DNA from: Gemmatimonadaceae bacterium
GTDB lineage: Bacteria > Gemmatimonadota > Gemmatimonadetes > Gemmatimonadales > Gemmatimonadaceae
DNA length: 38,272 nucleotides
NCBI GenBank assembly: GCA_017881585.1
Contig: JADGQS010000014.1
Span: forward strand, 1 to 38,272
Direction of reading: 5' to 3'
Position numbers and translations under genes: made by a program. Shown one piece after another: positions 11,346 through 36,697 of the stretch. A model generated the notes under the pieces. It worked only from the letters and a program-made list of their open reading frames with translations, searched no databases and had not been told where the DNA came from. The stretch's first letter is position 1; each line of letters opens with the position of its first letter.

Positions 11346-11590
11346 GGGGCGAGGGGCGAGTTGAGGGGCGAGTGGCGAGACCAGGGGGAAGTGGCGAGGG
11401 TGAGTGGGGAGTGGGGAGAACCGAGTGGCGAGTAGGAAGTGGGGAGGTCTCTCACCACTTCTGAGCAGGTCGCATCTCTCGCCACTTGTCTCAGAACTCC
11501 CCACTCCCCTCTCAGTTCTCCCCACTTCCCCCTCACCCTCGCCACTCCCCACTGGTCTCGCCACTCGCCCCTCGTCTCGCCACTTCCCTC
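11346..11590 (+). repeat. Long imperfect inverted repeat, family 1 copy A (ppdK-rpsA gap)
   Basis: Together with the tandem array, promoter and leader listed next, this accounts for the 435-base gap between ppdK and rpsA. The left arm (about 11346-11424) is nearly all purine, built of variants of GAGTGGCGAG and GAGTGGGGAG. The right arm (about 11511-11590) is its reverse complement with few mismatches: for example GAGTGGCGAGACCAG at 11370-11384 pairs with CTGGTCTCGCCACTC in the right arm. A shorter inner pairing (GTGGGGAG with CTCCCCAC) encloses a central segment containing CCACTTCT and CTCTCGCC. Copies B and C near 30919 and 36431 share arms and layout. Function unknown; a transcript would form a very long hairpin just after the ppdK stop. 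Confidence 0.9.
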
Positions 11591-11597
11591 TCAAATC

Positions 11598-11649
11598 TGC
11601 AGTCGAGAGATGCAGTCGAGAGATGCAGTCGAGAGATGCAGTCGAGAGA
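11598..11649 (+). repeat. Four tandem 13-bp repeats abutting the rpsA promoter
   Basis: TGCAGTCGAGAGA occurs four times without interruption or mismatch (11598-11610, 11611-11623, 11624-11636, 11637-11649). The last unit ends at the base before the -35 hexamer of the proposed rpsA promoter. It could be a set of regulator sites, an upstream promoter element, or simply a slippage-prone array. Confidence 0.95.
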
Positions 11650-11678
11650 TTGACCAACCCCCTACAACCCACTATGTT
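11650..11678 (+). promoter_or_regulatory. Proposed rpsA promoter and leader
   Basis: TTGACC (11650-11655), a 17-base spacer and TATGTT (11673-11678) give a good housekeeping-type promoter, with an expected start near 11685 and a leader of about 90 bases. Within the leader CTCGCCG-TCG-CGGCGAG (11728-11744) is a perfect seven-pair hairpin, upstream of AGGAG at 11764-11768 and ATG 11775. S1 is known to control its own translation in other bacteria; whether this hairpin takes part is a guess. Confidence 0.65.
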
Positions 11679-11774
11679 AAATGGCTCCGGTATTTCGGCC
11701 GGGACCACTGTTGGTTCACCCCGTATCCTCGCCGTCGCGGCGAGCCGATCCCCTCCGCGATTCAGGAGCAGTTC

Positions 11775-13616
11775 ATGACCCCCGACACGAACACCATCGA
11801 AGCACCCGACATCGCCGGCGTCTCGCCGCTCTCGCAACGCGAGAAGCGCGACCTGCAGAAGGCGCAACTGCGCCCGCTCGCCAATCGCCGTCCCGAGCTC
11901 TACGAGGAGGACGAGTACACGTCCGACGAGTACGAGCAGATGATGGATATGTACAACGGCACCCTCGCGTCGATCGAAGAAGGCGAGATCGTCAAGTCGA
12001 AGGTGCTCGAGATCCGCGACAACCTCGTCGTGCTCGACATCGGATTCAAGTCCGAAGGCACGATCCCGCTCGAAGAGTTCAAGGACCTCCCCGACCTCAA
12101 GCCGGGTGACGAAGTCGAAGTGCTCCTCGAGCACCTCGAAGACCAGGAAGGCTCGGTCGTCCTTTCGAAGAAGAAGGCCGACTTCATGCGCGTGTGGGAA
12201 CGCATCCGCGTCGCATACGAGTCCGACCAGCCCGTCGAAGGCACGCTCGTCAAGAAGATCAAGGGCGGCGTCGTCGTCGACCTCATGGGCGTCGACGCGT
12301 TCCTTCCCGGCTCGCAGATCGCGCTCCGCCGCGTGCCGAACATCGACGAACTCCTCGGCCAGAAATACGAGTTCAAGATCATCAAGCTCAACAAGCGCCG
12401 CCGCAACATCGTCGTCTCGCGCCGCGTGATCCTCGAGACCGAGCGCGCCGGCAAGCGCGAGAAGTTGATGAAGGAGCTCGAGAAGGACCAGGTGCGGAAG
12501 GGCGTCGTGAAGAACATCACGGACTTCGGCGCATTTATCGATTTAGGCGGCGTCGACGGCCTGCTGCACATCACCGACATGTCGTGGGGCCGCATCCAGC
12601 ACCCGAGCGAGATGGTCGCGATCGGCGCGGAGCTCGAGGTCAAGGTGCTCGACATCGATTGGGAACGCGAGCGCATTTCGCTCGGGCTGAAGCAGCTCCA
12701 AAGCTACCCGTGGAAAGATGTAGCCGCGAAGTATCCCGTAGGCACGCGCGTCTCAGGCAAGGTGGTCTCGATCACCAACTACGGCGCGTTCATTGAGCTC
12801 GAGCCGGGCATCGAAGGCCTCGTGCACATCAGCGAGATGAGCTGGACGCGCAACGTCCGCCACCCGTCGAAGCTCGTGAGCATCGGCGAGGCGATCGAGG
12901 CGGTGGTGCTCAAGGTCGATCCGACCGAGGAGAAGATCTCGCTCGGCATGAAACAGACCGAGCAGGATCCGTGGATGGTGCTGCCGCTCAAGTACCCGGT
13001 GGGCACGCGCATCAACGGCAAGGTCCGCAACCTGACCTCGTTCGGCGCGTTCGTCGAGATCGAGCCGGGCATCGACGGCCTCATCCACATCTCCGACATG
13101 AGCTGGACCAAACGCGTGCAGCACCCGTCGGAAGTCGTCAAGAAGGGTGACGATGTGGACGTGGTGATCCTGAACATCGACAGCGACAACAAGCGCATCT
13201 CGCTCGGGCTGAAGCAGGCCGAGGAAGATCCGTGGCTCAAGATCGGCGAGAACTATCCGGTCGGCACGGAACTGCGCGGCAAGGTCGTCCGCCTGATGGA
13301 CAAGGGCGTGGTCGTCGACGTCGGCAACGACATCGAGGGCTTCGTGCCGATCTCGCAGCTCAACGTGACCGGCAAGCCGATCCAGAGCCCGGCCGATGTC
13401 GCGTGGGAGACGATGAACCTCGACGTGCGCGTGCTCGAGGTCGATCCAATCCACCGTCGCATCGTGCTCGCGGTCACGGGAATTCCGGAGGAGCAACCGC
13501 CCCGTCCGGAGACGCCGTCGAAGGTCTTCACGGAAGATGGGGAAGCCACTGCGGCCGACGTGCCGCCGGAAGTCATCGCGGCGGCGCTGGCCGAGGCGGA
13601 AACGACCGAAGGCTAA
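11775..13616 (+). CDS. rpsA: 30S ribosomal protein S1
   Basis: A 613-residue S1 with six S1/OB-fold repeats, needed for mRNA docking on the 30S subunit. An acidic N-terminal segment (YEEDEYTSDEYEQMMDMY) precedes repeat 1 (EEGEIVKSKVLEIRDNL). Repeats 3-5 are the most canonical RNA-binding units: ITDFGAFIDLGGVDGLLHI, ITNYGAFIELEPGIEGLVHI and LTSFGAFVEIEPGIDGLIHI, each followed by a '(D/E)MSW' turn. Repeat 6 (VRLMDKGVVVDVGNDIEGF) precedes a short acidic tail (AEAETTEG). The start is ATG 11775 with AGGAG seven bases upstream; the frame stays open upstream into the repeat region but has no support there. It has its own promoter after the ppdK repeat. Confidence 0.97.
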   Translation: MTPDTNTIEAPDIAGVSPLSQREKRDLQKAQLRPLANRRPELYEEDEYTSDEYEQMMDMYNGTLASIEEGEIVKSKVLEIRDNLVVLDIGFKSEGTIPLEEFKDLPDLKPGDEVEVLLEHLEDQEGSVVLSKKKADFMRVWERIRVAYESDQPVEGTLVKKIKGGVVVDLMGVDAFLPGSQIALRRVPNIDELLGQKYEFKIIKLNKRRRNIVVSRRVILETERAGKREKLMKELEKDQVRKGVVKNITDFGAFIDLGGVDGLLHITDMSWGRIQHPSEMVAIGAELEVKVLDIDWERERISLGLKQLQSYPWKDVAAKYPVGTRVSGKVVSITNYGAFIELEPGIEGLVHISEMSWTRNVRHPSKLVSIGEAIEAVVLKVDPTEEKISLGMKQTEQDPWMVLPLKYPVGTRINGKVRNLTSFGAFVEIEPGIDGLIHISDMSWTKRVQHPSEVVKKGDDVDVVILNIDSDNKRISLGLKQAEEDPWLKIGENYPVGTELRGKVVRLMDKGVVVDVGNDIEGFVPISQLNVTGKPIQSPADVAWETMNLDVRVLEVDPIHRRIVLAVTGIPEEQPPRPETPSKVFTEDGEATAADVPPEVIAAALAEAETTEG

Positions 13617-13626
13617 GGAACGGCGA

Positions 13627-13687
13627 CGACGAGCGACGGCTACGCAATGGCGACGAGCGACGGCTACGCAATGGCGACGAGCGACGG
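13627..13687 (+). repeat. 24-bp tandem repeats after rpsA
   Basis: The 24-base unit CGACGAGCGACGGCTACGCA plus ATGG occurs at 13627-13650 and 13651-13674, followed by a 13-base partial copy (13675-13687). The array starts ten bases after the rpsA stop and runs into the inverted repeat that follows. Its vocabulary (GACGAGCGACGG) differs from the GAGTGGCGAG family elsewhere in the window. Confidence 0.93.
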
Positions 13688-13824
13688 GTGAGGGGCGACT
13701 TGGCGAAGAGCGACGTGCGACGGGCGAGGAGCAGGTCTCCTCGCTTCTCGCCCGTCGCTCTTCGCCAGATCGCCCCTCACGCGTCGCTCTTCGCTCTTCG
13801 CCGGATCGCCCCTCCCGCGTCGCT
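13681..13824 (+). repeat. Inverted repeat plus 36-bp-period direct repeat at a gene start
   Basis: The left arm 13681-13730 is the imperfect reverse complement of 13737-13786; for instance GGCGAAGAGCGAC pairs with the right-arm stretch GTCGC-TCTTCGCC, and TGAGGGGCGA pairs with TCGCCCCTCA. Part of the right arm is then repeated directly: 13757-13788 and 13793-13824 are 32-base copies with two mismatches at a period of 36 bases. Because 36 is a multiple of three, the copy encodes a duplicated 12-residue stretch (ALRQIAPHASLF / ALRRIAPPASLV) before the signal peptide of the next gene. Confidence 0.88.
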
Positions 13825-15739
13825 CGTTGCCTGTTGTTTGGCGCTGCTCGCCGCGTGCCGCGCTCCGTCACTGCTGATTCGCGACGACTCCGACACGCAA
13901 CTCGCGCACACGACGATCGCGGGGCCGAGCACGGGCGATCGCGGTCCGTACGGCACGAAGTTCCTGTACTACGGCAGCGGCACGGACAAGAACCGTGCAG
14001 TGTACCGCGATTCGGTTTCGCTCAAGACACGCCCGGTGAACGCGACCCCGTTCCTGCGCGGCGGCGACAAGAAGGCGCTCGCCGAGCGGTGGAAGTACTG
14101 GGGCTTCGACGTCAAACGCCTCCCGCTCAACGCCCGCGTCTGGTATCCCGACGGAGCGGGTCCGTTTCCGCTCGTGCTGATCGTGCACGGCAATCACGAC
14201 ATGAAGAAGTTCTCCGACCCGGGCTACGCATATCTCGGCGAACAGCTCGCGAGCCGCGGCTACATCCTCGCGTCGGTGGACGAGAATTTCCTGAACGGCG
14301 GGCTGCGCGGCGAGAACGACGTGCGCGGATGGGTGCTGCTGCAGCATCTCGCCGCGTGGAAACAGTGGAGTGCGGAACCGGGGAATCCGTTCTTCGGGAA
14401 AGTCGACATGGCGCGCATCGCGCTGATCGGGCACTCGCGCGGCGGGGAGGCGGTGCAGCTCGCCGCGTCATTCAATCATCTCCCGCGCTATCCCGACGAC
14501 GCGCGCGTGACGATGAACTTCGGGTTCAACATCAGAACCATCATCGCGATCGCGCCCGTCGATGGCACGTACAAGCCCACGGACCGGCTCAACCCGATCG
14601 AGAACGTGAATTATTTCGTCCTCCACGGCGCGCACGACGGCGACGTGCAGACGATGATGGGCATGCGCGCATACGATCGCGTGCGATTCACCGAAGGTTC
14701 GTCGTGGGTGAAGGCCGCGCTCTACATCTATCGCGCGAATCACGGTCAGTTCAACACGACGTGGGGGAACAACGACGTCGGCGATTCCGGCTGGCTGCTC
14801 GCGAAGGACCTCCTGCTCGAGGGCGACGAGCAGCGCCAGATCGCGAAAGTGTTCATCACGGGATTCCTGGACCTGACGCTCCGCGACAAGCGCGAGTACC
14901 TGCCGATGTTCCGCGACCATCGCGCGGTGGGGACTTGGCTGCCGAAGACGACCTACCTCTCGCGATTCGAGGCGCCCACCGAGCGCATCATCGCCGACTA
15001 CGAGGAGGACATCGACGTCACCACCGGTTCGGCGCGCGGCGTGAGGATCTCCGGCTCGCGCCTCGCGACCTGGAAGGAAGTCGGACTGAAAATGCGCAGC
15101 CGCGGATTCCAGCCGTTCGACAACAACGTCGCGATGCTCGGCTGGACCGCCGCGCGCAGCGCGAGCGACACGGCGCGTGCGAGCTACACGCTCTCGCTGC
15201 CCGATTCGCTCGCACGGGCGTGGAATCTTTCCGCGACATCATCGGTGGTGTTCGATCTCGCGAACTACGGTGTCAAGCCGCGACCGCTTTCGCCGGCGGA
15301 CACTGCGACACCACCGCTGCACGAAGACACGACGCATGCGAATCCCACCTCGGCGCCCGCGGCGGCGCCGCCCGTCCTCAGCGATTCCGCCAAGGCCGCC
15401 GCGGCAAAAGCCGACTCGCTTCCGCTCGACCTCACCGTCGAACTGGTCCTCGCCGACGGTCGCGTGGCGTCACTGCCGCTCTCGGATGTCGCGCCGATCC
15501 GTCCGCCGCTCACCGCGCGGATCTGGAAGTACGACTACATCGCCAAGCGCCTGAACCCGCCGTCGAAGGACCACGACGACATTCTCTCGCATTACACGAT
15601 TCCGCTCGCGTTGTTCGCGAAACGGCTGCCGGGATTCGATGCGTCGGCTGTTCGCGCGATCAGATTCCGTTTCGATCGCGGGCCTGCGGGGACGATTCTG
15701 CTCGACGATGTCGGCTTCGATCTCGGCACCGCCCCCTGA
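13715..15739 (+). CDS. Alpha/beta-hydrolase lipoprotein with C-terminal accessory domain (substrate unknown)
   Basis: Counted from GTG 13715 the protein has 674 residues. A hydrophobic segment ends in the lipobox LLAAC (lipid-modified Cys about residue 48), indicating an envelope lipoprotein. The hydrolase core follows: LVLIVHGNHDM (oxyanion-hole region), the nucleophile elbow LIGHSRGGEAV (Ser about 240), an Asp in LHGAHDGDV (about 307) and a His in RANHGQFN (about 341). After about residue 400 there is a region rich in beta strands, interrupted by a Pro/Ala/Thr-rich linker around 15290-15410 and ending in FDRGPAGTILLDDVGF, reminiscent of a carbohydrate-binding-like jelly roll. Substrate is unknown; esterase or dienelactone-hydrolase-like activity is plausible. 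The start is uncertain: there is no ATG, and only GTG 13715 or TTG 13700 precede the signal sequence, both inside repeats. Confidence 0.75.
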   Translation: MRRARSRSPRFSPVALRQIAPHASLFALRRIAPPASLVACCLALLAACRAPSLLIRDDSDTQLAHTTIAGPSTGDRGPYGTKFLYYGSGTDKNRAVYRDSVSLKTRPVNATPFLRGGDKKALAERWKYWGFDVKRLPLNARVWYPDGAGPFPLVLIVHGNHDMKKFSDPGYAYLGEQLASRGYILASVDENFLNGGLRGENDVRGWVLLQHLAAWKQWSAEPGNPFFGKVDMARIALIGHSRGGEAVQLAASFNHLPRYPDDARVTMNFGFNIRTIIAIAPVDGTYKPTDRLNPIENVNYFVLHGAHDGDVQTMMGMRAYDRVRFTEGSSWVKAALYIYRANHGQFNTTWGNNDVGDSGWLLAKDLLLEGDEQRQIAKVFITGFLDLTLRDKREYLPMFRDHRAVGTWLPKTTYLSRFEAPTERIIADYEEDIDVTTGSARGVRISGSRLATWKEVGLKMRSRGFQPFDNNVAMLGWTAARSASDTARASYTLSLPDSLARAWNLSATSSVVFDLANYGVKPRPLSPADTATPPLHEDTTHANPTSAPAAAPPVLSDSAKAAAAKADSLPLDLTVELVLADGRVASLPLSDVAPIRPPLTARIWKYDYIAKRLNPPSKDHDDILSHYTIPLALFAKRLPGFDASAVRAIRFRFDRGPAGTILLDDVGFDLGTAP

Positions 15740-15766
15740 AGACGTGCGGAACCGGCATGTGCGTCC

Positions 15767-15772
15767 TAGGTT
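15767..15772 (+). promoter_or_regulatory. Putative -10 element for a leaderless transcript (repeat-protein gene)
   Basis: TAGGTT followed by CCACTCC and then ATG 15780. The 20 bases from CCTAG to the ATGTC match those before the gene at 17643 with one mismatch. No Shine-Dalgarno sequence precedes the ATG. The gap to the upstream gene is only 40 bases. Confidence 0.55.
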
Positions 15773-15779
15773 CCACTCC

Positions 15780-17597
15780 ATGTCGACGCGCGTTCATCGT
15801 CCTCTGTCACTCCCGCTCCCAAGACTCCTCGCGGGGGCCGCGCGCGGACTGTGCCTGCTGATATTGGCCATCGCGGGCGCGGCGACGGCGCAGGCGCAGG
15901 AGTTCACGCGACAGATGGTCATGGTGGCCACGCTCCGGCCAGTCGGCGATCCCAAGGTTGCCCGCCGCGTGGGCGACGAGGCCAGGGCACGCATCGCCCG
16001 GATGGGCAACAAGCGGGAGATGCAGGTGCTCGACCCCTACTTCGTGGAGCGGGCGTTCAATCTGTCGGACCTCGCGTACGACAAGCCGCTCGGCGACCGC
16101 GAGCTGTTCGAGACCGCGCGTTTCATGCGCGTCGACGAGGTGCTCTTCGGCACGGTGACCGCCCGCGCTGGCGAAGTAACCGTCGTCGCTGGGCTCAGGC
16201 TTACGCGCGACTGGGGTCAGCACCAGCCGTTGCCCGTGGTTCGCGCGGCGACAGCGGCCGAGGCCGCCGAAAAGCTCGCCGGTGAGGTCACGAAGGCGAG
16301 GCAGCAGCTGAGCTCGCTGCGCCGGTGCGAAAACGCCATGCATGAAGGGAAGCAGGCGAATGCCATTCGTTTCGCCGAGGATGGGGTGAAGGCGTACCCG
16401 GCGAGCACGTTCGCCCGGACCTGCCTGCTCGCCGGCTTGCTCTGGCTTGGCGAGCGCGCGGACTCCGTCCTCCGGGTGGCCGACCAAATCCTCGGACTCG
16501 ATTCGCTCAACATCCTTGCAACGGTGGCGAGAGCGTCCGCGCTCCAGGCCGAGAACCGTCCGGCCGACGCGGAACGCGCGTGGCTGCGAGTCACCGACCT
16601 GCGCGCCGACAGCATCGACCTGGGCGTGCGCACGGTGGAGGCACTCTTGCAGCTGCCCCGCCCGTCGTCCGCCCTCGACGTCACGCGGCGTCTCAGCGCC
16701 CTCGACGGGAAGGAGCCGCGCCTGCAACGGCTCCGCTTCCGCGCCTGGTACGCGATGTCGTCGTGGAAGGAGACGGCCGCGCTCGGCGATTCCCTCGACA
16801 CGGCCGACGACGCCGAGTTCCGCGACGACTCGAGTTACGCCGTGCGCTACGTGGATGCCCTGCGGCAGAGCGGCGACTCGATCGGTGCGCTGGCCGTGAG
16901 CGCGCGCTCCGTGAAACGCTATCCGGGCGACGCCCGCGTGTACGCGCAGTACGTCGCGCTGATCGGCGGCGAGAGCGGTGCGGCGTTGCCGCGCGGCATC
17001 ATGCGCTTTCCCTCGGAGCCGGAGTTCTACGTGATCGCCGCGAAGAACGCACGCGACGCCGGCAGACGGCGCGAGGCGATCGCCGCCACCGCGGCGGCCG
17101 TGCGAGCCGACCCCGGGCTGGCGCAGGGATACCTGCAGATGGCCGAACTGTGGTTCGAGGAACAGTTGCCGGATAGCGCCTTGGCGGTGTTGCGCCGCGC
17201 GCCGCGCAGCGGCGACGGCGTCGAGATGCTGCGCAGCTATGCGATCGGGCGCGGCGCGCGGGTGCTTCGCTCGGCGGGAGACACCTCGCTGGCGTTGCAG
17301 CGCGTCGCCGTGAACTTCCTTCTCCTCGCCGACAGCATCGAGTCGCGCGAGGACTCGCGCAACTATGCCGCGGCGGGGATGCTGCAACTGGCCAGGAGTG
17401 AACTCGTAGTGGCCGGCAAGACGCGAGACTGCGCCGAGGTCAAGCGGGCGGATGCGGCGCTCGGTTCGTCGGCGAGCCTCATAGCGCGCGGCGTGGGCTC
17501 GGCGGCGGGCACAGGCGACGGACTCAAGCAGGCATGGGACGCGATGAGGGCAGCCGTCGACAATGGCACGCGGGTGCTGTGCAAGCCGCCGGGCTGA
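15780..17597 (+). CDS. Exported TPR-like repeat protein, function unknown
   Basis: A 605-residue protein with a Sec signal peptide: a basic n-region, a hydrophobic core (GLCLLILAIAGAA) and an AQA cleavage site after about residue 39. The first 150 residues of the mature part include FTRQMVMVATLRPVGDPKVA and VDEVLFGTVTA, which resemble the beta-strand/helix mix of a periplasmic nucleating domain. The rest is almost purely helical, rich in Ala, Leu and Arg with spaced pairs such as AIRFAEDGVKAYPAS and AIAATAAAVRADPGLAQGYLQMAELW, typical of tetratricopeptide-like solenoids. Four cysteines (RRCEN, RTCLL, TRDCAEV, VLCKPPG) could form two disulphides. It is probably a periplasmic scaffold. I do not recognise a named family. 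Confidence 0.75.
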   Translation: MSTRVHRPLSLPLPRLLAGAARGLCLLILAIAGAATAQAQEFTRQMVMVATLRPVGDPKVARRVGDEARARIARMGNKREMQVLDPYFVERAFNLSDLAYDKPLGDRELFETARFMRVDEVLFGTVTARAGEVTVVAGLRLTRDWGQHQPLPVVRAATAAEAAEKLAGEVTKARQQLSSLRRCENAMHEGKQANAIRFAEDGVKAYPASTFARTCLLAGLLWLGERADSVLRVADQILGLDSLNILATVARASALQAENRPADAERAWLRVTDLRADSIDLGVRTVEALLQLPRPSSALDVTRRLSALDGKEPRLQRLRFRAWYAMSSWKETAALGDSLDTADDAEFRDDSSYAVRYVDALRQSGDSIGALAVSARSVKRYPGDARVYAQYVALIGGESGAALPRGIMRFPSEPEFYVIAAKNARDAGRRREAIAATAAAVRADPGLAQGYLQMAELWFEEQLPDSALAVLRRAPRSGDGVEMLRSYAIGRGARVLRSAGDTSLALQRVAVNFLLLADSIESREDSRNYAAAGMLQLARSELVVAGKTRDCAEVKRADAALGSSASLIARGVGSAAGTGDGLKQAWDAMRAAVDNGTRVLCKPPG

Positions 17598-17629
17598 CCG
17601 CGATCGTTCCGGAACCCTCGTCCGCACCC

Positions 17630-17635
17630 TAGTTT
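17630..17635 (+). promoter_or_regulatory. Putative -10 element for a leaderless transcript (carboxyltransferase gene)
   Basis: TAGTTT followed by CCACTCC and ATG 17643, the same arrangement as at 15767. The distance from hexamer to ATG (seven bases) fits transcription starting on the ATG. It would drive the acyl-CoA carboxylase operon. Confidence 0.55.
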
Positions 17636-17642
17636 CCACTCC

Positions 17643-19193: not shown

Positions 19194-19197
19194 CTTG

Positions 19198-20766: not shown

Positions 20767-22004
20767 CCGACCGGCTCACGCTCGAGATCGAATCGATCGC
20801 CTCGGGCGGCGATGGCGTCGCGCGCAGCGACGGGCTCGTCGTCTTCGTGCCGCGCACCGCGGTTGGCGATCGTGTGGTTGCGGGCGTCACGGTGAAGGGC
20901 CGGCTGGCGCGCGGCATCCTGGAACGCATCGAGCGCGCCGGGCCCGGTCGTGTGGCGGCCGAGTGCGTGCACTATGAGGGTGATCGCTGCGGAGGCTGCC
21001 AGCTGCAGCACCTCTCCGTGCCGGCCCAGCGCGAGGCGAAGCGGCGGATCATCTCCGACACGCTTCGCCGCATCGGCAAGCGCGACGTGCCGCCGCCGGA
21101 GATTCACGCGGGCGCGAACGTGTGGCGGTATCGCCGCAAGCTTACGCTCGCCCTTCGCCGCACCGGCGAGCGCTGGATGTGCGGACTGCACGCGTTCGAC
21201 GATCCCTCGCACGTGTTCCTCCTGAAGGACTGCCGGATTTCCGACGAACGATTGATGGCCGTCTGGCGCGAGATCCTCGCGGCGTCGGCGCATTTTCCGC
21301 AGGCGCTGCAGTTGCGCGGCGCGGTGCGCCTGCTTGGCGATTCCACGAATCGCGCGGCGTTCGTACTCGAGGGCGGACGGGACTGGGACTCGCACGAGAC
21401 GTTCTTCGAGGCGGTTCCTTCACTCGCGGCGCTCTGGTGGATGCCGGAGAACGGCGCGCGCCGCCTGCTCGGCGACCGGCGCGAGAAGCGCGAGCCCGGA
21501 GCGTCGTTCGCGCAGGTGAATCCTGAAGTGGCGGTCACGCTCGAGACATTCGTGGTCGACGCCGTGATGGCGCACGCGCCGGCGACCGTGGTCGATGCGT
21601 ACTCGGGCGCCGGCGATGTGGCGCTCGCGCTCGCGGTGCGCGGCGTTCACGTGGTCGCGATCGAACTCGATGCGGAGGCGAGCGCGTGGGCGGCGTCGCG
21701 ACTGCCCGCGGGATCGCGCGCGGTGACGGCGCGCGTCGAGGACGCGATCCGGAATACGCTCCCGGCGGACGTCGTGATCCTGAATCCGCCGCGCACCGGT
21801 GTCGATGCGCGCGTGACCTCCGCGCTGGGGAGTATTGCGACGGCGCCTCGCGCGATCGTCTATGTGAGCTGTGATCCGGCCACGCTCGCCCGCGACCTCT
21901 CGCGGCTTCCGGGATGGACCATCGCGAGACTGACGGCGTTCGACATGTTTCCGCAGACGGCACACGTGGAGACGGTGTGCGAACTGGTTCCGGTGACCGC
22001 ATGA
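20763..22004 (+). CDS. 23S rRNA/tRNA (uracil-5)-methyltransferase, TrmA/RlmD family
   Basis: A 413-residue class I SAM-dependent methyltransferase that methylates uracil C5 in tRNA or 23S rRNA. Residues 1-58 form a TRAM (RNA-binding) domain. The [4Fe-4S] cysteines are present: C68, C76 and C79 (CVHYEGDRCGGCQLQHL) plus C157 (LLKDCRI). The SAM fold shows VVDAYSGAGDVALALAVRG and the acidic VVAIELDAEAS. ILNPPRTGVDARV and the catalytic VYVSCDPATLARDL complete the family signature. Which uridine is the target cannot be read from the sequence. Unusually, it lies between biotin carboxylase and biotin carrier genes, joined to both by ATGA overlaps (20763-20766 and 22001-22004). Confidence 0.93.
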   Translation: MTDRLTLEIESIASGGDGVARSDGLVVFVPRTAVGDRVVAGVTVKGRLARGILERIERAGPGRVAAECVHYEGDRCGGCQLQHLSVPAQREAKRRIISDTLRRIGKRDVPPPEIHAGANVWRYRRKLTLALRRTGERWMCGLHAFDDPSHVFLLKDCRISDERLMAVWREILAASAHFPQALQLRGAVRLLGDSTNRAAFVLEGGRDWDSHETFFEAVPSLAALWWMPENGARRLLGDRREKREPGASFAQVNPEVAVTLETFVVDAVMAHAPATVVDAYSGAGDVALALAVRGVHVVAIELDAEASAWAASRLPAGSRAVTARVEDAIRNTLPADVVILNPPRTGVDARVTSALGSIATAPRAIVYVSCDPATLARDLSRLPGWTIARLTAFDMFPQTAHVETVCELVPVTA

Positions 22005-22510
22005 AATACATCGTGGAGATCGCGGGGCGGAGGATCGAGGTGACCGTCGATGGGGATCAGGTCTCCGTCGACGGCGGTCCGGCCGAACACGCGCGGCTCC
22101 GCGATGTGGAAGGCACGCCCGTGCGGCTCGTCACCATCGGCGATGCCGTGCATCGGGTCACGGCACGGCGCGATGGGCCGCGTGGGACGTACCTGCTGCG
22201 AATCGACGGGCGACGGTATCCGGTGGAGGCGCTGGACGAGAGGACGCGCGCCATTCGCGACCTCTCTGCGGCGGCCGCCGGGCCCGCTGGACCTCAGCCG
22301 GTGCGGGCGCCGATGCCGGGGCTCATGGTCAGAATTGACGTGAAACCCGGAGACCAAGTACAAGCGGGGCAGGGAGTTGCGGCGATGGAGGCCATGAAGA
22401 TGGAGAACGAGTTGCGAGCGCCCGCGGCTGGGCGAGTGAAGGCGGTGCACGTCTCCGTTGGGCAGGCGGTCGAGAAGGGGGCGCTCCTGGTGGAGTTTGA
22501 AAGCGAGTAA
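22001..22510 (+). CDS. Biotin carboxyl carrier protein of acyl-CoA carboxylase
   Basis: A 169-residue biotinyl carrier. The C-terminal barrel carries the biotinylation motif EAMKMEN with Lys about 133, framed by VRAPMPGLMVRIDVKPGD and VKAVHVSVGQAVEKGALL. An Ala/Pro-rich hinge (AAAAGPAGPQPVRAP) precedes it. The N-terminal 90 residues are rich in beta strands, as in the carrier parts of propionyl-CoA and methylcrotonyl-CoA carboxylases, where such a region docks onto the partner subunit. ATG 22001 is fixed by the ATGA overlap with the methyltransferase gene. The last codons and the stop codon form the left arm of an inverted repeat. Confidence 0.93.
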   Translation: MKYIVEIAGRRIEVTVDGDQVSVDGGPAEHARLRDVEGTPVRLVTIGDAVHRVTARRDGPRGTYLLRIDGRRYPVEALDERTRAIRDLSAAAAGPAGPQPVRAPMPGLMVRIDVKPGDQVQAGQGVAAMEAMKMENELRAPAAGRVKAVHVSVGQAVEKGALLVEFESE

Positions 22511-22586
22511 TCGGTCATTGGTAGTTAGTCGTTGGTGATAGGCCAATAACCAAGAACCAATGACCAACGACCGATTACTCGCTTTT
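22501..22586 (+). terminator. Palindrome spanning the biotin-carrier stop codon; probable terminator
   Basis: AAGCGAGTAATCGGTC (22501-22516) is perfectly complementary to GACCGATTACTCGCTT (22569-22584), followed by more T (TTTT at 22583-22586, then CCTTTC). The left arm includes the last codons and TAA stop of the carrier gene. Between the arms are degenerate copies of ATTGGT/TTAGTC on the left and ACCAAT/GACCAAC on the right that extend the pairing. As RNA this is a long AU-containing hairpin with a U-run, so termination is plausible. Confidence 0.75.
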
Positions 22587-22621
22587 CCTTTCATCTCTCG
22601 CTGCGTAACCCATTGCGCCGA

Positions 22622-22650: not shown

Positions 22651-22745
22651 TACAGACTGTCCTAAAACGCCTTGAATGGCGGCCGAGACCCGGGTTGCAA
22701 TCCGCACCGGTGAGGCGCTGCACTCGCATCAGTCCTATTTCCGGC

Positions 22746-23195: not shown

Positions 23196-23196
23196 C

Positions 23197-23589: not shown

Positions 23590-23710
23590 GATGGGAGATG
23601 TTGGGAAAGCAGATGCTGGATGGGAGTTGTTGGATGCTAGACGTTCAGTCCTACCTCCCTTCTCACATCCAGCATCTAGTTTCTAGCATCTAACATCCAG
23701 CATCTAGCAT
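23590..23710 (+). repeat. Degenerate inverted repeat after rpsI (GATGCTGGATG words)
   Basis: The left half contains GATGCTGGATG (23613-23623) and GGATGCTAGA (23632-23641); the right half contains their complements CATCCAGCATC (twice) and TCTAGCATC (twice). The perfect 11-base arms plus further partial words would give a branched hairpin. This is a third vocabulary, different from those at 11346 and 22501. I saw no clear promoter in the 23711-23838 remainder before rpsB. Confidence 0.82.
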
Positions 23711-25625: not shown

Positions 25626-25637
25626 GGCCGCACGCCC

Positions 25638-26381: not shown

Positions 26382-26929
26382 GCATTCCGATCATCCTGAA
26401 GGACTGTCGCGCGCAGATGGACAAGGGCATCGAGGCCGTGAAACGCGAGTTCGCCTCGGTGCGCTCGGGCAAGGCCTCGCCAAGCATGCTCGATTCCGTG
26501 AAGGTCGAGATGTACGGATCGCTGATGGCCTTCAACCAGGTCGCCAACGTCTCCGCGCCCGAGCCGCGCCTGCTCGTCGTCACGCCGTTCGACAAGACGC
26601 AGATCAAGGCGATCGAGAAGGCGATCCGCGAATCCGGACTCGGCCTCGATCCGTCGGTGCAGGGTGCGATCGTCCGCGTCCCGCTTCCGTCGATGAACGA
26701 GCAGCGCCGCAAGGAGCTCGCGAAGGTCGTCCACAAGTACGCCGAGGACGGGCACATCGCGATCCGGCACGCGCGAACATCCGCCCGTGAGACGCTCAAG
26801 AAACTCGCCGGCACGTCGGAAGACGACGTGAAGCACGCGGAGAAGGACCTTCAGAAGGCCCACGACGAATTCATCGGCAAGATCGACGCCCTGATGAAGG
26901 TCAAGGAAGCAGAAATCATGGAGGTGTGA
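26378..26929 (+). CDS. frr: Ribosome recycling factor
   Basis: A 183-residue RRF, which with EF-G splits post-termination ribosomes. Domain I helices show [20 protein letters not shown], then the domain II strands [20 protein letters not shown], and the long C-terminal helices [21 protein letters not shown] and [14 protein letters not shown] separated by the usual turn. Length matches the family (about 185). It starts in the pyrH stop (ATGA) and ends in TGATG with uppS. Confidence 0.96.
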
Positions 26930-27681: not shown

Positions 27682-27720
27682 TTTCGCACCCGCCCTCTTC
27701 GCCGGAACCCAAAGAGAAAC

Positions 27721-30916: not shown

Positions 30917-30918
30917 CT

Positions 30919-31165
30919 GCGGGGGCGAGGGGCAAGACCAGTGGGGAGGGGCAAGACCAGTGGGGAGTGGCAAGGGTGAGTGGCAAGTGGGGAGAACTGA
31001 GTGGCGAGCGGCGAGTGGGGAGCCCGCGCCACTTCTCTGCGAGTCTCGTCTCTCGCCTCTACTTCGAACTCCCCGCTCCAGCCTCGGTTCTCCCCACTTC
31101 CCACTCACCCTCGCCACTCTCGTCTGGTCTCGCCACTCGCCCCTAACTCCCCTCTCATTTCTCGT
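30919..31165 (+). repeat. Long imperfect inverted repeat, family 1 copy B (rseP-rpsO gap)
   Basis: With the promoter listed next this fills the 335-base gap. The left arm (about 30919-31021) is purine-rich and contains GAGTGG words and GGGGAGAACTGAG; the right arm (about 31079-31160) carries the complement, e.g. CTCGGTTCTCCCC and CTGGTCTCGCCACTC. A 19-base stretch, AGGGGCAAGACCAGTGGGG, is duplicated in tandem (30928-30946, 30947-30965). The central loop has CCACTTCT and TCTCTCGCC, as in copy A, in the same orientation. Several left-arm words read GGCAAG where A and C have GGCGAG, so copies drift at the unit level. Confidence 0.9.
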
Positions 31166-31176
31166 CGCTCGAAGGG

Positions 31177-31205
31177 TTGATTTCAGTGGGGAGAGTAGAT
31201 AAGTT
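31177..31205 (+). promoter_or_regulatory. Proposed rpsO-pnp promoter
   Basis: TTGATT (31177-31182), a 17-base spacer and TAAGTT (31200-31205), just past the right arm of copy B. The start would be near 31212, with a leader of about 40 bases. AGGA at 31239-31242 is the ribosome binding site for ATG 31252. Confidence 0.6.
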
Positions 31206-31251
31206 CGTATGCTATAACAAACTGACCGCAAAGAACTTAGGATTCCCAACA

Positions 31252-31512
31252 ATGGCTTTCGTAAAGACCCCCGCGATCGAGAAGAATCGCAAGCACGCCA
31301 CCGACACCGGCTCCTCGCAGGTCCAGATCGGGGTGCTCACGGAACGGATCAATTTCTTGACCGATCATTTCCGCCAGCACGCCAAGGACCACCATGGGCG
31401 CCGGGGTCTCCTCAAGATGGTCGGCAAGCGCCGCCGTCACTTGGACTATCTGAAGCGCACAGACGTCGAAGGCTATCGGAAGATCATCTCCGATCTTGGC
31501 CTGCGCTACTAA
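31252..31512 (+). CDS. rpsO: 30S ribosomal protein S15
   Basis: An 86-residue S15, which binds the 16S rRNA three-way junction early in assembly. The sequence has the family's [41 protein letters not shown] and the C-terminal [20 protein letters not shown]. Length is nearly invariant in the family (about 89). ATG 31252 has AGGA nine bases upstream; the longer open frame to 31177 runs into the promoter. It precedes pnp as in many bacteria, with an intrinsic terminator between them. Confidence 0.97.
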
Positions 31513-31534
31513 TCTCGCAACGCATTTCATGACT

Positions 31535-31566
31535 CGCGCGGACGCACAATGCGGCCCGCGCGTTTT
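31535..31566 (+). terminator. Intrinsic terminator or attenuator between rpsO and pnp
   Basis: CGCGCGG (31535-31541) pairs with CCGCGCG (31556-31562), with an inner CGC/GCG pairing, followed by TTTT (31563-31566) and TGTTT. It should end or reduce transcription after rpsO. In enterobacteria the rpsO-pnp region is a processing site for RNase III; this hairpin could play either role. Confidence 0.8.
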
Positions 31567-31592
31567 GTGTTTCTCCTGAGGCAATTTCACGT

Positions 31593-33878
31593 ATGATGCA
31601 TCGCATCGAGCGCACGTTCGCCGGCCGGCCACTGATCATCGAGACGGGCCGCATGGCCAAGCAGGCCGCCGGTTCCTGCCTCGTGCAATTCGGCGACACG
31701 ATGGTCCTCGCCGCCGTCACCGTCGGCGACAAGGAATCGACGCTCCCGTTCTTCCCGCTGACCGTCGAGTACAAAGAGAAGACCTACGCCGCCGGCAAGA
31801 TCCCGGGCGGCTTCATCAAGCGTGAAGGACGCCCGCGCGACGAGGAGATCCTCTCGTGCCGCATCATCGACCGCTCGATCCGCCCGCTCTTCCCCGAGGG
31901 CTTCAAGAACGAAGTCCAGGTCTTCATTTACGTCATCTCCGCCGACCAGGAGAACAAGGCCGACGTCCTCGCGCTCGTCGCGACGTCGTTCGCGCTGAAC
32001 GTCTCGCGCATCCCGTTCGCGGGACCGATCGCCGGCGTTCGCGTCGGCCGCGTGTCGGGTGAGGACGGAACGCCGCACTGGGTGCTCAACCCCACGATCC
32101 AGGCGATCGAGGTCTCCGACTTGGACCTCGTCGTCGCCGGCTCGCAGGACTCGATCATGATGGTCGAAGGCGGCGCCATCGAGATCCAGGAAGAGGAAGT
32201 CGTCGAGGCGCTCGGCATCGCGCAGCGCGGCATCAAGGAACTCATCGCGATGCAGGAAGAGCTGCTCGCCAAGGGCCGCGCGGACAAGATGGCGTGGAAG
32301 AAGGCCGCGATGCCGCAGGACATCGTCGATCTCGTGAACGCCGAGGCGAAGGACCAGATCCTCGCGGCGATCAACCAGAAGGACAAGCACACGCGCATCC
32401 AGGCCGTCGAGGCCGTCAAGGAAGCGACGAAGACGAAGCTCAAGGCCCAACTTGCCGTGGAGCAGCACGGTTTCATCGGCGCGGTCCTCGGCGACATCGA
32501 ATACGAATCGCTGCGCGCCCAGGTGCTCGACACCGGCCTCCGCGTCGACGGCCGCAAGCCGAACGAAGTGCGCGCCATCTCGATCGACATGGGCCTCCTT
32601 CCGCGTGCGCACGGTTCCGTGCTCTTCACGCGCGGCCAGACGCAGGCGCTCGTCGCCGCGACGCTCGGCACCGCGAACGACGTGCAGCGACTGGACTCGA
32701 TCGACGAGAAGAACGAGACGACGAAGTCGTTCATGCTCCACTACAACTTCCCGCCGTTCTGCACCGGTGAGGTCCGTCCGATGCGCGGCACCAGCCGCCG
32801 CGAGATCGGCCACGGCAACCTCGCCGAGCGCGCGCTTCAGGCCGTGCTCCCGCCGTTCACAGAGTTCCCGTACACCATCCGCATCGTGAGCGACGTGCTC
32901 GAGTCCAACGGCTCGAGTTCGATGGCCTCGGTGTGCGGCGGCTCGCTCTCGTGCTTCGACGCGGGCATCCCGCTGAAGGCCGCGGTGGCCGGCGTCGCGA
33001 TGGGGCTCATCAAGGAAGGAAAGAAGTACGCGATCCTCACCGATATCCTCGGCACGGAAGACCATCTCGGCGACATGGACTTCAAGGTTGCCGGCACGAA
33101 GGACGGCATCACGTCGATCCAGATGGACATCAAGATCCACGGGCTCGACCTGAAGATCATGACCGAGGCACTGCACCAGGCGAAGGAAGGCCGCCTGCAC
33201 ATCCTCGGCGAGATGGATAAGGCGCTTCCCGCCGCTCGTCCGGAGATGTCGCCGTACGCGCCGCGCATCATCACCGTGCAGATCAACCCGGAGAAGATCG
33301 GCGAGCTCATCGGACCGAAGGGCAAGAATATCCGCGGCATTCAGGAAGAGAGCGGCGCGGAAATCACGGTCGACGACACGGGTCTCGTCACGATCGCAGC
33401 GGTCGGACAGGACTCCATGGAGCGGGCGAAGCAGATGGTGCAGGCCATCACCGTCGAGCCGGAAGTCGGCGCGATTTACGAAGGCCCGGTGAAGAGCACG
33501 ACCGCGTTCGGCGCATTCGTCGAGATCATGCCGGGCTCGGAAGGCCTCGTGCACATCTCCGAGCTGCAGCACGGCCGCACGGAGAAGACCGAAGACGTCG
33601 TGAAGAAGGGCGATCGCGTGAGGGTGAAGGTGATCGAGCGCGACGAGCGTGGGCGCCTCCGCCTCTCGATGAAGGCACTCATTCCGAAGCCGGGCTCGGA
33701 TGGCGCGGCTGTGGAGCCGGCGTACGCCGACGCCGCCGGCGGCGCTCCCTCGGGCGCTCCCTCGGGGGCTCCTGCCGGCGAATCGACCGGCGGCAGTGAA
33801 GAGCGCCCGCGTCGCGAAGGCGGCGATCGGGGCGGTCGCAGTGGTGGACGCGGTGGGCGCGGCGGCCGCGGACGCTAA
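31593..33878 (+). CDS. pnp: Polyribonucleotide nucleotidyltransferase (PNPase)
   Basis: A 761-residue phosphorolytic 3'-5' exoribonuclease. It has two RNase PH domains (first: AGSCLVQFGDTMVLAAV, GGFIKREGRPRDEEILSCR, IDRSIRPLFPEGF; second from about residue 310: LRVDGRKPNEVRAISID, GSVLFTRGQTQAL, PPFCTGEVRPMRGTSRREIG, with the active-site Asp region ILGTEDHLGDMDFK). These are followed by a KH domain (EKIGELIGPKGKNIRGIQEE, about 566) and an S1 domain (TAFGAFVEIMPGSEGLVHI, about 635). The last 65 residues are unusual: a Gly/Ala/Ser/Pro linker, then an Arg-Gly-rich tail (GGRSGGRGGRGGRGR). ATG 31593 is preferred, with GAGG 11 bases upstream; ATG 31596 is adjacent. Confidence 0.97.
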   Translation: MMHRIERTFAGRPLIIETGRMAKQAAGSCLVQFGDTMVLAAVTVGDKESTLPFFPLTVEYKEKTYAAGKIPGGFIKREGRPRDEEILSCRIIDRSIRPLFPEGFKNEVQVFIYVISADQENKADVLALVATSFALNVSRIPFAGPIAGVRVGRVSGEDGTPHWVLNPTIQAIEVSDLDLVVAGSQDSIMMVEGGAIEIQEEEVVEALGIAQRGIKELIAMQEELLAKGRADKMAWKKAAMPQDIVDLVNAEAKDQILAAINQKDKHTRIQAVEAVKEATKTKLKAQLAVEQHGFIGAVLGDIEYESLRAQVLDTGLRVDGRKPNEVRAISIDMGLLPRAHGSVLFTRGQTQALVAATLGTANDVQRLDSIDEKNETTKSFMLHYNFPPFCTGEVRPMRGTSRREIGHGNLAERALQAVLPPFTEFPYTIRIVSDVLESNGSSSMASVCGGSLSCFDAGIPLKAAVAGVAMGLIKEGKKYAILTDILGTEDHLGDMDFKVAGTKDGITSIQMDIKIHGLDLKIMTEALHQAKEGRLHILGEMDKALPAARPEMSPYAPRIITVQINPEKIGELIGPKGKNIRGIQEESGAEITVDDTGLVTIAAVGQDSMERAKQMVQAITVEPEVGAIYEGPVKSTTAFGAFVEIMPGSEGLVHISELQHGRTEKTEDVVKKGDRVRVKVIERDERGRLRLSMKALIPKPGSDGAAVEPAYADAAGGAPSGAPSGAPAGESTGGSEERPRREGGDRGGRSGGRGGRGGRGR

Positions 33879-33887
33879 AGGGGCTGA

Positions 33888-35162
33888 ATGGCTGAAAGCA
33901 CCGCCCTCCTCGCGCCGCACGTGACAGAGAAGGGAGTCGAACGCACCGTACTGCCCAATGGATTGACCGTACTCTCGGAACCGTATCCGGGAGTGCGGTC
34001 GATTGCTATCGGCGCCTGGGTCCGCGCGGCGTCGATGCACGAGCGGCGTGAGGAGATGGGTGTATCGCACATGCTCGAGCACCTCGTGTTCAAGGGCACG
34101 AGGAACCGGAGCGCGAAAGCCATCGCATCGGCGCTCGAGTCGCTCGGCGGTTCGCTCGACGCCTACACCGCGCGCGAGCACACCTGTTTCCAGGCCCGGG
34201 TGCTCGACGAGCATCTGGCCGAAGCGGCGGACGTGATCGCCGATCTCGTCTTCCGGCCGTCGCTCCGCGCCGAGGACCTGAATCTCGAGCGGAAGGTGGT
34301 GCTCGAGGAAATCGCGATGGTCGAGGACTCGCCGGACGACATTGTGTTCGAGCTGCACAACGAGGCGCTCTGGGGCGAGCATCCGTACGGCTACTCGATC
34401 CTCGGAACGAGAGAGAGCGTCGGGTCGATGCAGGTCGAGACGGTGCGCGCGCTGCACGAGCGTGCGTACCACCCGTCGCAGATCGTCGTCGCCGCGAGCG
34501 GCAACATCGAGCACGACGACCTGCTCGCCGAGCTCGAGCGCACCGGCTGGAACGACCTTCCTCGGGGCGACGACAGCCGCCTGGCCGTACCGTCTCCGGT
34601 GACGGCTCCGGCGACCGACCGTCACATCGAACGCGATTCTCAGCAGACGCACCTGGTGTTCGGCTCTTCGACGGTCGCGCACGCCGATCCGCGCCGCTAT
34701 CCGTTGATGCTGATCGATACGCTGCTCGGCGGCGGCATGAGTTCGCGCCTCTTCCAGCGCATCCGCGAGGAGCTCGGTCTCGCGTATTCCGTCTATACCT
34801 TCCAGAGTTTTCACGTGCACGTGGGAACGCACGGCGTGTATGTCGCGACCGCTCCCGAGACGGCGGAGCAGGCGACCGCCGCCGTGAGGGAGGAACTGTC
34901 ACGCCTCGCGCAGGAAGGAATCGCCGAACCGGAGCTCCAGATGGGCAAGCGGCAGCTGAAGGGCCAGATCACGCTGTCGATGGAAAGCGTATCGAGCCGG
35001 ATGTACCGCGCGGCGGGCGTGGAACTGTTCGGCGAGCCGTACATACCGATCGACGAAGTCCTGGCCAAGATCGACGCCATCACCGTCGAAGACACGAAGG
35101 AAGTCTGTGCCGAGTTCTTCCCGCCCGAGCGCCAGACGCTGGTCAGCCTGGGCCCGCAGTAG
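33888..35162 (+). CDS. M16-family zinc metallopeptidase (processing-protease-like)
   Basis: A 424-residue peptidase of the M16B type (PqqL/YmxG/mitochondrial processing peptidase relatives). The inverted zinc motif is HMLEHLVFKGT (H61, E64 as base, H65), with the third ligand Glu about 141 in VVLEEIAMVEDSPDD. The C-terminal half retains the fold (LLGGGMSSRLFQRIREELGLAYSVY, with the Arg/Tyr pair of active subunits). It lies ten bases after pnp, as in many bacteria including Bacillus, where the pair pnp-ymxG occurs. The substrate is unknown. The last codon and TAG stop are the first unit of a tandem repeat. Confidence 0.94.
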   Translation: MAESTALLAPHVTEKGVERTVLPNGLTVLSEPYPGVRSIAIGAWVRAASMHERREEMGVSHMLEHLVFKGTRNRSAKAIASALESLGGSLDAYTAREHTCFQARVLDEHLAEAADVIADLVFRPSLRAEDLNLERKVVLEEIAMVEDSPDDIVFELHNEALWGEHPYGYSILGTRESVGSMQVETVRALHERAYHPSQIVVAASGNIEHDDLLAELERTGWNDLPRGDDSRLAVPSPVTAPATDRHIERDSQQTHLVFGSSTVAHADPRRYPLMLIDTLLGGGMSSRLFQRIREELGLAYSVYTFQSFHVHVGTHGVYVATAPETAEQATAAVREELSRLAQEGIAEPELQMGKRQLKGQITLSMESVSSRMYRAAGVELFGEPYIPIDEVLAKIDAITVEDTKEVCAEFFPPERQTLVSLGPQ

Positions 35163-35218
35163 TTCGTTCGCAGTAGTTCGTTCGCAGTAGTTTGTTCGCA
35201 GTAGTTCGTTCGCAGTAG
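35156..35218 (+). repeat. 14-bp tandem repeats covering a stop codon
   Basis: GCAGTAGTTCGTTC occurs at 35156-35169, 35170-35183, 35184-35197 (one T/C change) and 35198-35211, followed by GCAGTAG. The first unit contains the last codon (CAG) and TAG stop of the M16 gene. The 35219-35299 stretch up to ald holds loose copies of CCCGCATC/TCTCGCATC and no clear promoter. Confidence 0.95.
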
Positions 35219-35299
35219 CGTCGTTTGCAACACCCGCAGTCCGCATTGCACTTTCCCGCTTCTCGCATCCCGACCCCGCATCCCGCATCGAGTCACTAT

Positions 35300-36415
35300 A
35301 TGAAAATCGGAATCCCAAAGGAAATTAAGACCAACGAGAATCGCGTGAGCCTCGTCCCCGCCGGCGCCGAATCGCTGGTGGCCGCCGGCCACTCCGTCCT
35401 CGTGGAAACCGGCGCAGGCCTTGGCAGCAGCTTCACCGACGACCAGTACACCGCGGTGGGCGCCAAGATCGCCCCGAGCGCCGACGCCACCTGGGCCGAC
35501 GCCGACATGATCATGAAGGTGAAGGAGCCGATCGCGCCCGAGTGGAAACGCATGAAGAAGGGCCAGGTGATCTTCACCTACTTCCACTTCGCCGCTGACG
35601 AAAAGCTCACGAAGGCGCACATGGCTTCCGGCGCAGTGTGCATCGCGTACGAGACCGTGGAGTTGCCGAACCGCGAGCTCCCCCTGTTGGTGCCAATGTC
35701 CGAGGTCGCCGGCCGCATGGCCGTGCAGGAAGGCGCCAAGTACCTCGAGAAGCTCTACGGCGGACGCGGCGTGCTGCTCGGCGGCGTTCCCGGCGTTCCC
35801 CCGGCCAAGGTGGTGATCCTTGGCGGCGGCGTAGTCGGCATCAACGCGGCGAAGATAGCGGCGGGAATGGGCGCGCAAGTCACGATTCTCGATACGTCGC
35901 TCGAGCGGCTTCGCTACCTGAGCGACGTGATGCCCGCGAACGTTCAACTGATCTTCTCGAACCGCCACAATATTCTCGATCAGATCGCGACGGCCGACCT
36001 CGTGGTCGGCGGCGTGCTGATCCCAGGTGCGGTCGCTCCGAAGCTCGTCCGCAAGGGTGACCTCAAGACGATGCGTCCGGGCTCGGTGATCGTGGATGTC
36101 GCGATCGACCAGGGCGGCTGCGTGGAGACGATCCACGCGACCACGCACGAGAACCCGACGTACGTGGTGGATGACGTGATTCACTACGGTGTCGCCAACA
36201 TGCCCGGCGGCGTGCCGCGCACGTCGACGCTCGCGCTCACCAACGCGACGCTCCCGTACGCGCTGACGCTGGCAAGCAAGGGCTGGAAGAAGGCGCTGGC
36301 CGAGAGCCCGGCCCTCCTGAAGGGTCTCAACGTGGTCGATGGGAAGGTGACGTACCGGGGCGTGGCGGAGGCGTTTGGAATGGAGTTCCATGAGCCGGCG
36401 ACTTTCCTCAAGTAG
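35300..36415 (+). CDS. ald: Alanine dehydrogenase
   Basis: A 371-residue NAD-dependent enzyme interconverting alanine and pyruvate plus ammonia, homologous to Bacillus Ald. Features: MKIGIPKEIKTNENRVSL at the start, MKVKEPI (substrate Lys), TYFHFAADEKL (catalytic His about 96), the Rossmann loop VVILGGGVVGINAAKIAAGMG, then LVVGGVLIPGAVAPKLV, VDVAIDQGGCVET and ANMPGGVPRTST. Length is typical. ATG 35300 matches homologues; the frame continues upstream to 35225, but there it is repeat sequence. It has no clear promoter or Shine-Dalgarno sequence, so transcription from upstream or a leaderless start are both possible. It may provide pyruvate or nitrogen balance. Confidence 0.96.
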   Translation: MKIGIPKEIKTNENRVSLVPAGAESLVAAGHSVLVETGAGLGSSFTDDQYTAVGAKIAPSADATWADADMIMKVKEPIAPEWKRMKKGQVIFTYFHFAADEKLTKAHMASGAVCIAYETVELPNRELPLLVPMSEVAGRMAVQEGAKYLEKLYGGRGVLLGGVPGVPPAKVVILGGGVVGINAAKIAAGMGAQVTILDTSLERLRYLSDVMPANVQLIFSNRHNILDQIATADLVVGGVLIPGAVAPKLVRKGDLKTMRPGSVIVDVAIDQGGCVETIHATTHENPTYVVDDVIHYGVANMPGGVPRTSTLALTNATLPYALTLASKGWKKALAESPALLKGLNVVDGKVTYRGVAEAFGMEFHEPATFLK

Positions 36416-36430
36416 CTCAAGAAGGGAGAT

Positions 36431-36697
36431 GGGAGTGGCGAGGGAAGGGGCGAGTTCAGGGGTGAGTGGCGAGACCAGGGGGGAGTGGCGAGGGTGAGTG
36501 GGAAGTGGGGAGAACCGAGCGGGGAGTGGCGAGTGGAGAGATCTACTCGCCACATCTCGCATCGCAGCGAGCCGGCCGCAGTTCTCCCCACTTCCCGCTC
36601 GCCTCTCGGTTCTCCCCACTCCCCCCTCACCCTCGCCACTCCCCACTGGTCTCGCCACTTCCCACTGAACTCGCCACTCGCCCCTGAACTCCCCACT
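36431..36697 (+). repeat. Long imperfect inverted repeat, family 1 copy C (ald-mreB gap)
   Basis: With the promoter and leader that follow, it accounts for the 388-base gap before mreB. The left arm (about 36431-36518) ends in GTGGGGAGAACCGAG; the right arm begins CTCGGTTCTCCCCAC (36604-36618) and continues with close complement to about 36697 (e.g. CTGGTCTCGCCACT). The match is the best of the three copies, with one short extra unit in the right arm. A second GTTCTCCCC lies in the inner part (about 36580). The central loop (CCACATCTCGCATCGCAGCG) has diverged more than in A and B. Confidence 0.9.

Follow-up and report, generated by a model that had tools for sequence, protein, structure and literature searches.

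Palindromes built from degenerate seven-base words (heptads) are scattered between the genes of a Gemmatimonadota genome, and at such sites the shape can survive a change of text: comparison with related genomes sometimes finds, in the same gap, the palindrome kept and its words different. This genome, G000 (3.09 Mb in 240 contigs; a MAG about 90% complete with 2.5% contamination), is the source of the window, by which we mean the whole 38,272-nucleotide stretch of DNA that was analysed; the best matches of the window's PNPase are Gemmatimonadota MAGs, at 78% identity. On balance, we think that these are probably REP/MITE-like, heptad-built palindromes that are recopied at standing sites and that serve, behind genes, as transcript-end hairpins.

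Three palindromes that a sequence-only reading had described in the window were found by an inverted-repeat search within a few bases of the positions it gave. Palindrome A (11345..11591; arms 11345-11440/11496-11591, 84% complementary) occupies the ppdK-rpsA gap, B (30919..31165; arms 30940-31016/31068-31144, 81% complementary) the rseP-rpsO gap and C (36426..36698; arms 36426-36544/36580-36698, 82% complementary) the ald-mreB gap. All belong to what we call family I (GAGTGGS words), and no strand is assigned to these or to the other palindromes of the window. From the stop codons of ppdK, rseP and ald to the starts of the three palindromes there are 5, 2 and 10 nt, a placement behind stops that had been pointed out before, and their ends lie 183, 86 and 105 nt short of rpsA, rpsO and mreB. 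The proposal that each could fold as a long RNA hairpin is well supported by fold z values of -15.36 (A), -7.66 (B) and -14.09 (C), with none of 200 shuffles as stable for any copy. At gathering score, Rfam gave no match on A, B, C or the other window palindromes, and a known structured RNA is rejected on that ground. As the earlier reading had it, no transposase is nearby: none occurs among the 19 distinct window ORFs scanned.

A genome blastn check with low-complexity masking off returned more than a handful of copies, namely 25 family-I places in the G000 sequence examined, some of them partial and two, both in L168, possibly the arms of one copy. Copy C as a whole-genome BLAST query gave 59 overlapping matches, and GAGTGGSGAG was counted 186 times in G000 against 40 for the reversed control. 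A, B and C are members of one dispersed, strongly hairpin-forming, intergenic family. Eighteen copies have both arms of a 58-base core, and all of these arms but one (47) are identical to the consensus at 50-57 of the 58 bases; the non-heptad words GACCAG, GGGTGAG and GAACCGAG recur in the same order across copies. The word GGCAAG is, as had been remarked, a feature of one arm of B, with four occurrences on the left (window 30919-31022) and none on the right, and family-I words over all 25 places include 12 GGCAAG versus 195 GGCGAG. Local copying would account for this, as would a CpG-type transition hot spot.

Family I is one of about seven word families of common design in G000, which we named by eye: I, GAGTGGS; II, GCGACGAGCGACGG; III, TCGTTGGTCATTGG; IV, GATGGAA; V, ATGCTGG; VI, ATGCGGA; and VII, GATGCAGAATGCGGAAGAGGAATCCGG. 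Core matches put family III at about 50 G000 sites. The window itself holds three further palindromes with other words and the same period of seven, only the first of which is returned by a stricter scan. Palindrome D (13650..13854, family II) lies downstream of rpsA, and its right end enters the next called gene (start 13838) by 17 bases, so that either this start or the end of the outer arm is uncertain. Palindrome E (22500..22585, family III), in the rlmD-rplM gap, covers the final 11 bases of an ORF weakly called at 22001-22510. Palindrome F (23611..23705, family V, lag 7), in the rpsI-rpsB gap, is weak, with 31-nt arms at 77%; no words of its type were seen by eye in the same gap of the relatives G014, G006 and G015. 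Two other features of the window may be recorded here. A 13-base tandem unit, GCAGTCGAGAGAT, forms a short array at about 11600-11650, between palindrome A and rpsA (by eye), and is not visible in the ppdK-rpsA gap of the relative G011. The sole Rfam match in the window is a fluoride riboswitch aptamer at 238-305 (+) (RF01734, 47.9 bits).

The cores of families I and III are nearly confined to two genomes, which points to lineage-specific amplification. Among 298 phylum-wide genomes, the family-I core was found in two, G000 and G011; 15 have any match to the family-III core, with 101 matches in G000, 78 in G011, none in G014 and at most three in any other genome. A looser GAGTGGS heptad pattern has matches in 11 of 26 relatives (56 in G011, 15 in G002 and at most 6 in each of the rest). 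The 15 in G002 all fall on one strand, with none on the other, as in a direct array without an inverted half, and the single G002 locus returned for the pattern is L165 (G002:C79:1-1526). A scan for ungapped palindromes with arms of 24 or more and at least 80% complementarity (the 24+ class) found 24 in 460 kb of G014 (RseP 84%), 11 of them heptad and with words largely that genome's own. The same class was absent from the 250 kb of G006 and the 249 kb of G015 that were sampled, genomes of the same genus (RseP 67% and 60%). Relatives chosen by PNPase, for which 25 of 80 loci were searched, contributed nine Gemmatimonadota loci, one of which (L033) has two inverted repeats, neither of period 7.

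Orthologous gaps document how the words change. Between G000 and G011 there are 13 comparable intergenic sites, with flanks 90-98% alike where measured (excluding one pair inside a gene, at window 29189). The words are the same at seven of these: downstream of rpsA, L122:13023, L124:17132, L125:8492, L125:9852, the rseP gap (of which only 70 nt are visible in G011, where its contig ends) and the mreB gap. They are switched at four, the ppdK-rpsA gap, L122:5532, L122:8063 and L154:1500, and a palindrome is present in one genome only at two, L124:17873 and L197:15729. The ppdK-rpsA gap of G011 keeps family-I outer arms around an inner palindrome of family VII, and a nested case is also found in G000, at L126:5999, where a family-VII inner part lies inside a family-I outer arm on the left side. 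At L124:17873-18012, a 138-bp stretch with 23-nt inverted ends is in G000 and not in G011, between flanks 98/93% alike; the stretch may have been lost from G011 by deletion at a short repeat, instead of having been inserted in G000.

Against G014, 12 heptad sites of G000 comprise one with the same words, three with a palindrome of other words and eight without a palindrome that has ungapped arms of 18 or more, four of these eight retaining by eye one-arm, degenerate or direct-heptad remnants. Seven of 19 comparisons were left out of this count as inside genes, not heptad or unclear (window 29189, L122:15759, L312:1534, L312:3251, L321:16336, L321:17692 and L321:17897). Palindrome D has the same words in G011 and G014. 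The rseP gap, the site of palindrome B, carries other words in G002, and in G014 it has a single C-rich arm; the mreB gap, the site of palindrome C, has the same family in G011 and other words in G002 and G014. Both gaps compared in G002 (rseP and mreB) hold a palindrome of a G002 family, and both family-III sites with a palindrome in G014 have one belonging to a single G014 family, VIII. Identities average 0.79 within III, 0.82 within VIII, 0.58 between them and 0.50 for shuffles; those computed for the orthologous III/VIII pairs (0.68, 0.10) were set aside, since free end gaps make them unreliable. Orthologous family-I pairs that keep their family (n=3) are 0.88-0.96 alike, more than the G000 copies among themselves (average 0.80), which argues for vertical inheritance where words are kept and against simple concert.

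Several observations bear on mechanism. The flanks of the copy at L125:9852 and of its G011 counterpart run the same way, yet the centre is inverted between the two (score 91 as reverse complement, 16 forward), and we conclude that the arms of this copy have recombined. Arms are slightly more alike within a copy than between copies (0.903 versus 0.889; 192/20000 permutations), a weak excess that suggests that pairing is not closely maintained in individual copies. The motif AACTGC occurs outside the palindrome, at most 40 nt away, at 12 of 94 ends in G000, where 0.6 are expected from shuffled flanks, mostly on one side of the palindrome; it accompanies families I and III, by eye directly adjoining the palindrome in 10 cases, with one family-II case 17 nt away. 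The same motif marks 4 of 30 ends in G014 (0.2 expected), in three families, and is absent from the top 6-mers of 20 G011 ends. The shorter ACTGC occurs at 17/94 ends versus 2/184 pieces further out in G000 (p 3e-7, with family copies not independent) and at 6/30 ends versus 4/60 control pieces in G014. The Y1 transposase of REP type (IS200/IS605-like, PF01797) was found in 0/8 genomes, G000 included, by a search that detected it in 5/14 known genomes as positive control; membership in the REP/RAYT system is rejected for this reason. No convincing target-site duplication was seen by eye in the flanks of the 25 family-I places or of families II, III, IV, VII and VIII.

In the reading that we favour, the palindromes would be non-coding dispersed repeats of the REP/MITE sort, made from degenerate seven-base words, with several word families per lineage. 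Copies would spread via recopying at intergenic sites, often ones already palindromic, through replacement in place or nesting, and recombination could occur between a copy's two arms. The recopying might proceed via ectopic recombination or some enzyme. Copies just behind a gene would form long 3'-end RNA hairpins that end transcription or block 3' exonucleases, and they would sit where outgroup species have ordinary U-tract terminators. In favour of this, palindromes stand at 10/40 gene 3' ends in blind G000 versus 1/93 in G006+G015 (p 2e-5). A bolder version has a modest chance of being right: the clade would keep hairpins at fixed sites, partly replacing U-tract terminators, and a copying machinery that recognises AACTGC would overwrite their words in concert. 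If so, structure would be inherited and sequence would not. The before/after pairs of G000 and G011, with words replaced while the palindrome stays, could reveal the copying mechanism.

The seven-base rule is broad. Palindromes of the 24+ class number 38 in a first G000 sample (340,685 bases, partly chosen for family-I matches, about 91% coding) and 12 in a blind sample (229,933 bases from 20 contigs selected by number alone). The best period is 7 in 27/38 and 8/12 respectively, and 45/50 (35/38 and 10/12) lie outside genes. The G-rich arm comes first in all 34 heptad palindromes of G000 (27 first sample, 7 blind), in 9/10 in G011 and in 8/11 in G014. By extrapolation from the blind sample, the genome would hold some 160 palindromes, with heptad ones accounting for about 95, as a rough figure. 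In the first sample's gaps, 20 tandem segments were counted at lag 7 versus 0-8 at other lags from 4 to 15, those at lags 14 (8) and 12 (5) being multiples or mixtures of lag-7 words. Direct heptad arrays also occur in the gaps of other phyla (L105:3273-3310, L042:7105-7132, L083:7593-7627, L062:8826-8852), where we counted five heptad segments in 139 kb of gap sequence; thus the seven-base preference is not confined to Gemmatimonadota. The L118:6839 region likewise has a direct array without a palindrome.

The claim that the elements mark operon ends holds in part. Copies do lie between tandem genes after stop codons; they also lie in convergent and divergent gaps, as family I itself does elsewhere in G000, and an element confined to operon ends is rejected. 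Considering gaps of 90 nt or more and palindrome arms of 20 or more, the tandem, convergent and divergent gaps with a palindrome are 19/44, 8/14 and 8/27 in the first G000 sample, 8/32, 1/4 and 3/14 in the blind sample, 13/67, 6/14 and 6/30 in G014, and 7/12, 1/3 and 3/5 in G011. For the samples not selected for family I, this gives 9/44 divergent versus 21/99 tandem gaps, and the genes flanking divergent cases mostly have strong coding scores. Within tandem gaps, the palindrome starts at most 60 nt from the upstream stop in 16/19, 6/8, 12/13 and 5/7 cases (first, blind, G014, G011). Mutually similar pairs of non-heptad hairpins were also observed at L126:2285-2486 and L321:17692-17943, each in a divergent gap, the L321 site having a related hairpin in G014. 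Six further loci searched against Rfam gave two tRNAs only, with no match on palindromes or on these hairpin pairs, which may represent a structured RNA or regulatory site not described so far.

Could the palindromes be a neutral by-product, with replication slippage favouring tandem heptad arrays, template switching at stalled forks turning them into inverted pairs and gaps merely tolerating the outcome? In many bacteria no long repeats are commoner than heptads, and a polymerase-footprint idea for them is in print (PMC4692102, PMC4679880). Arguing in the same direction are the direct arrays without palindromes, at L118 and in other phyla, and the fact that any gap type is affected. Counter to this, slippage alone does not account for 25 places that share their non-heptad words and the order of these, nor for a flank motif common to families. 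We regard this explanation as doubtful.

Alternatively, selection at transcript ends could be primary: long hairpins would have replaced U-tract terminators, with selection keeping the hairpin while the sequence drifts or is recopied. A crude detector (stem plus T tract, with upstream sides as controls) reported terminator-like signals at 9/130 gene ends of G000+G011 versus 14/180 control sides, that is, intrinsic terminators (hairpin then T tract) at background only, for a set of which 72/130 ends came from the sample partly chosen for family I. By contrast, G006+G015 have an excess (24/93 versus 17/133, p 0.014), the two groups differ (p 1.9e-4), and five smaller samples combined (G001, G003, G005, G008, G009) give 11/53 versus 7/83. 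The outgroup gaps at rpsA and mreB hold ordinary terminators by eye, the gene upstream of mreB not always being ald. These patterns, together with the closeness of tandem copies to the stop, fit terminator replacement by palindromes at some sites, and the shortage of U-tract terminators raises the question of how these bacteria end transcripts. However, palindromes in divergent gaps mean that a terminator role cannot be general, and both the weak constraint on arm pairing and the crudeness and partial selection just described count against the idea. So does G014, which is intermediate in terminator-like signals (13/95 versus 14/127) despite palindromes at 25/95 ends. Selection of this kind as the whole explanation is, in our judgement, improbable.

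The sequence-only reading had further taken the arms for strings of GAGTGG(C/G)GAG, with each strand nearly pure purine or pyrimidine, and had suggested triplex or H-DNA. Its words are there, but the period is seven, mixed with 12-base units: over lags 1-24, lag 7 is highest in two of the six arms, and lag 19 (7+12) is highest in the other four, with lag 7 second. Purine content is actually 77-80%, and the longest unbroken purine run in the six arms is 9-11 bases, so triplex DNA is unlikely; the long unbroken purine tract of H-DNA is missing, and on these run lengths H-DNA is rejected. The idea that the palindromes function through structure in the DNA itself, as triplex or G-quadruplex, is hardly credible given these runs and a purine share of 0.43-0.52 in five family-III first arms, although G-rich heptad oligonucleotides from Xanthomonas and Nostoc form quadruplexes in vitro (PMC4692102).

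Searches of the open-licence literature showed us no palindromes of this kind in Gemmatimonadota. MITEs and foldback elements are non-coding, have inverted ends and occur in many copies. The palindromes described here resemble them in all three respects and differ in showing no convincing target-site duplication by eye and in having almost their entire length taken up by the inverted repeat.

Among published heptads, those of Xanthomonas and Nostoc are GGGAATC and GGGGA(C/T)T repeats (Rehm et al. 2015, PMC4692102). In that account, the Xanthomonas heptads are 89-93% intergenic and on average 28 nt from the upstream ORF. Convergent (inverted) pairs number 70 and 75, and the repeats hold their position between species although they vary in length and sequence; there is one word type per genome, in short arrays of mostly four units, and they are rare (7-8%) between divergent ORFs. 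Why bacterial genomes favour seven-base repeats, some of them paired into palindromes, is described there as unsettled (PMC4692102). The G000 elements share the period of seven, the G-richness and the mostly intergenic location. Unlike those repeats, they have words such as GAGTGGS, TCGTTGG and GATGGAA, arms as long as about 120 nt, several word families in each genome and ordered 12-base words; they are as frequent in divergent as in tandem gaps, and their words are switched wholesale. The TAACTGA heptads of Beggiatoaceae are similarly scattered between genes; they form 169 direct sets and one indirect repeat in the genome concerned (PMC4679880), in contrast to the palindromes seen here.

REPs are 20-40 bp long with a GTAG or CGTC tag, the CGTC type also occurring without a dedicated transposase (PMC3733652), and new REP classes can partly replace old ones, an 'orthoswitch' (PMC3686654). 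Like REPs, the present elements are dispersed palindromes outside genes in which one class can take another's place, and some may bear a short end tag (AACTGC, near some ends); unlike REPs, they measure 70-300 bp, are built from heptads and come from genomes with no detected Y1 transposase. Relative to published heptads and REPs, then, they differ in size, in the number of word families, in the absence of a REP transposase, in their ordered non-heptad words and in word switching.
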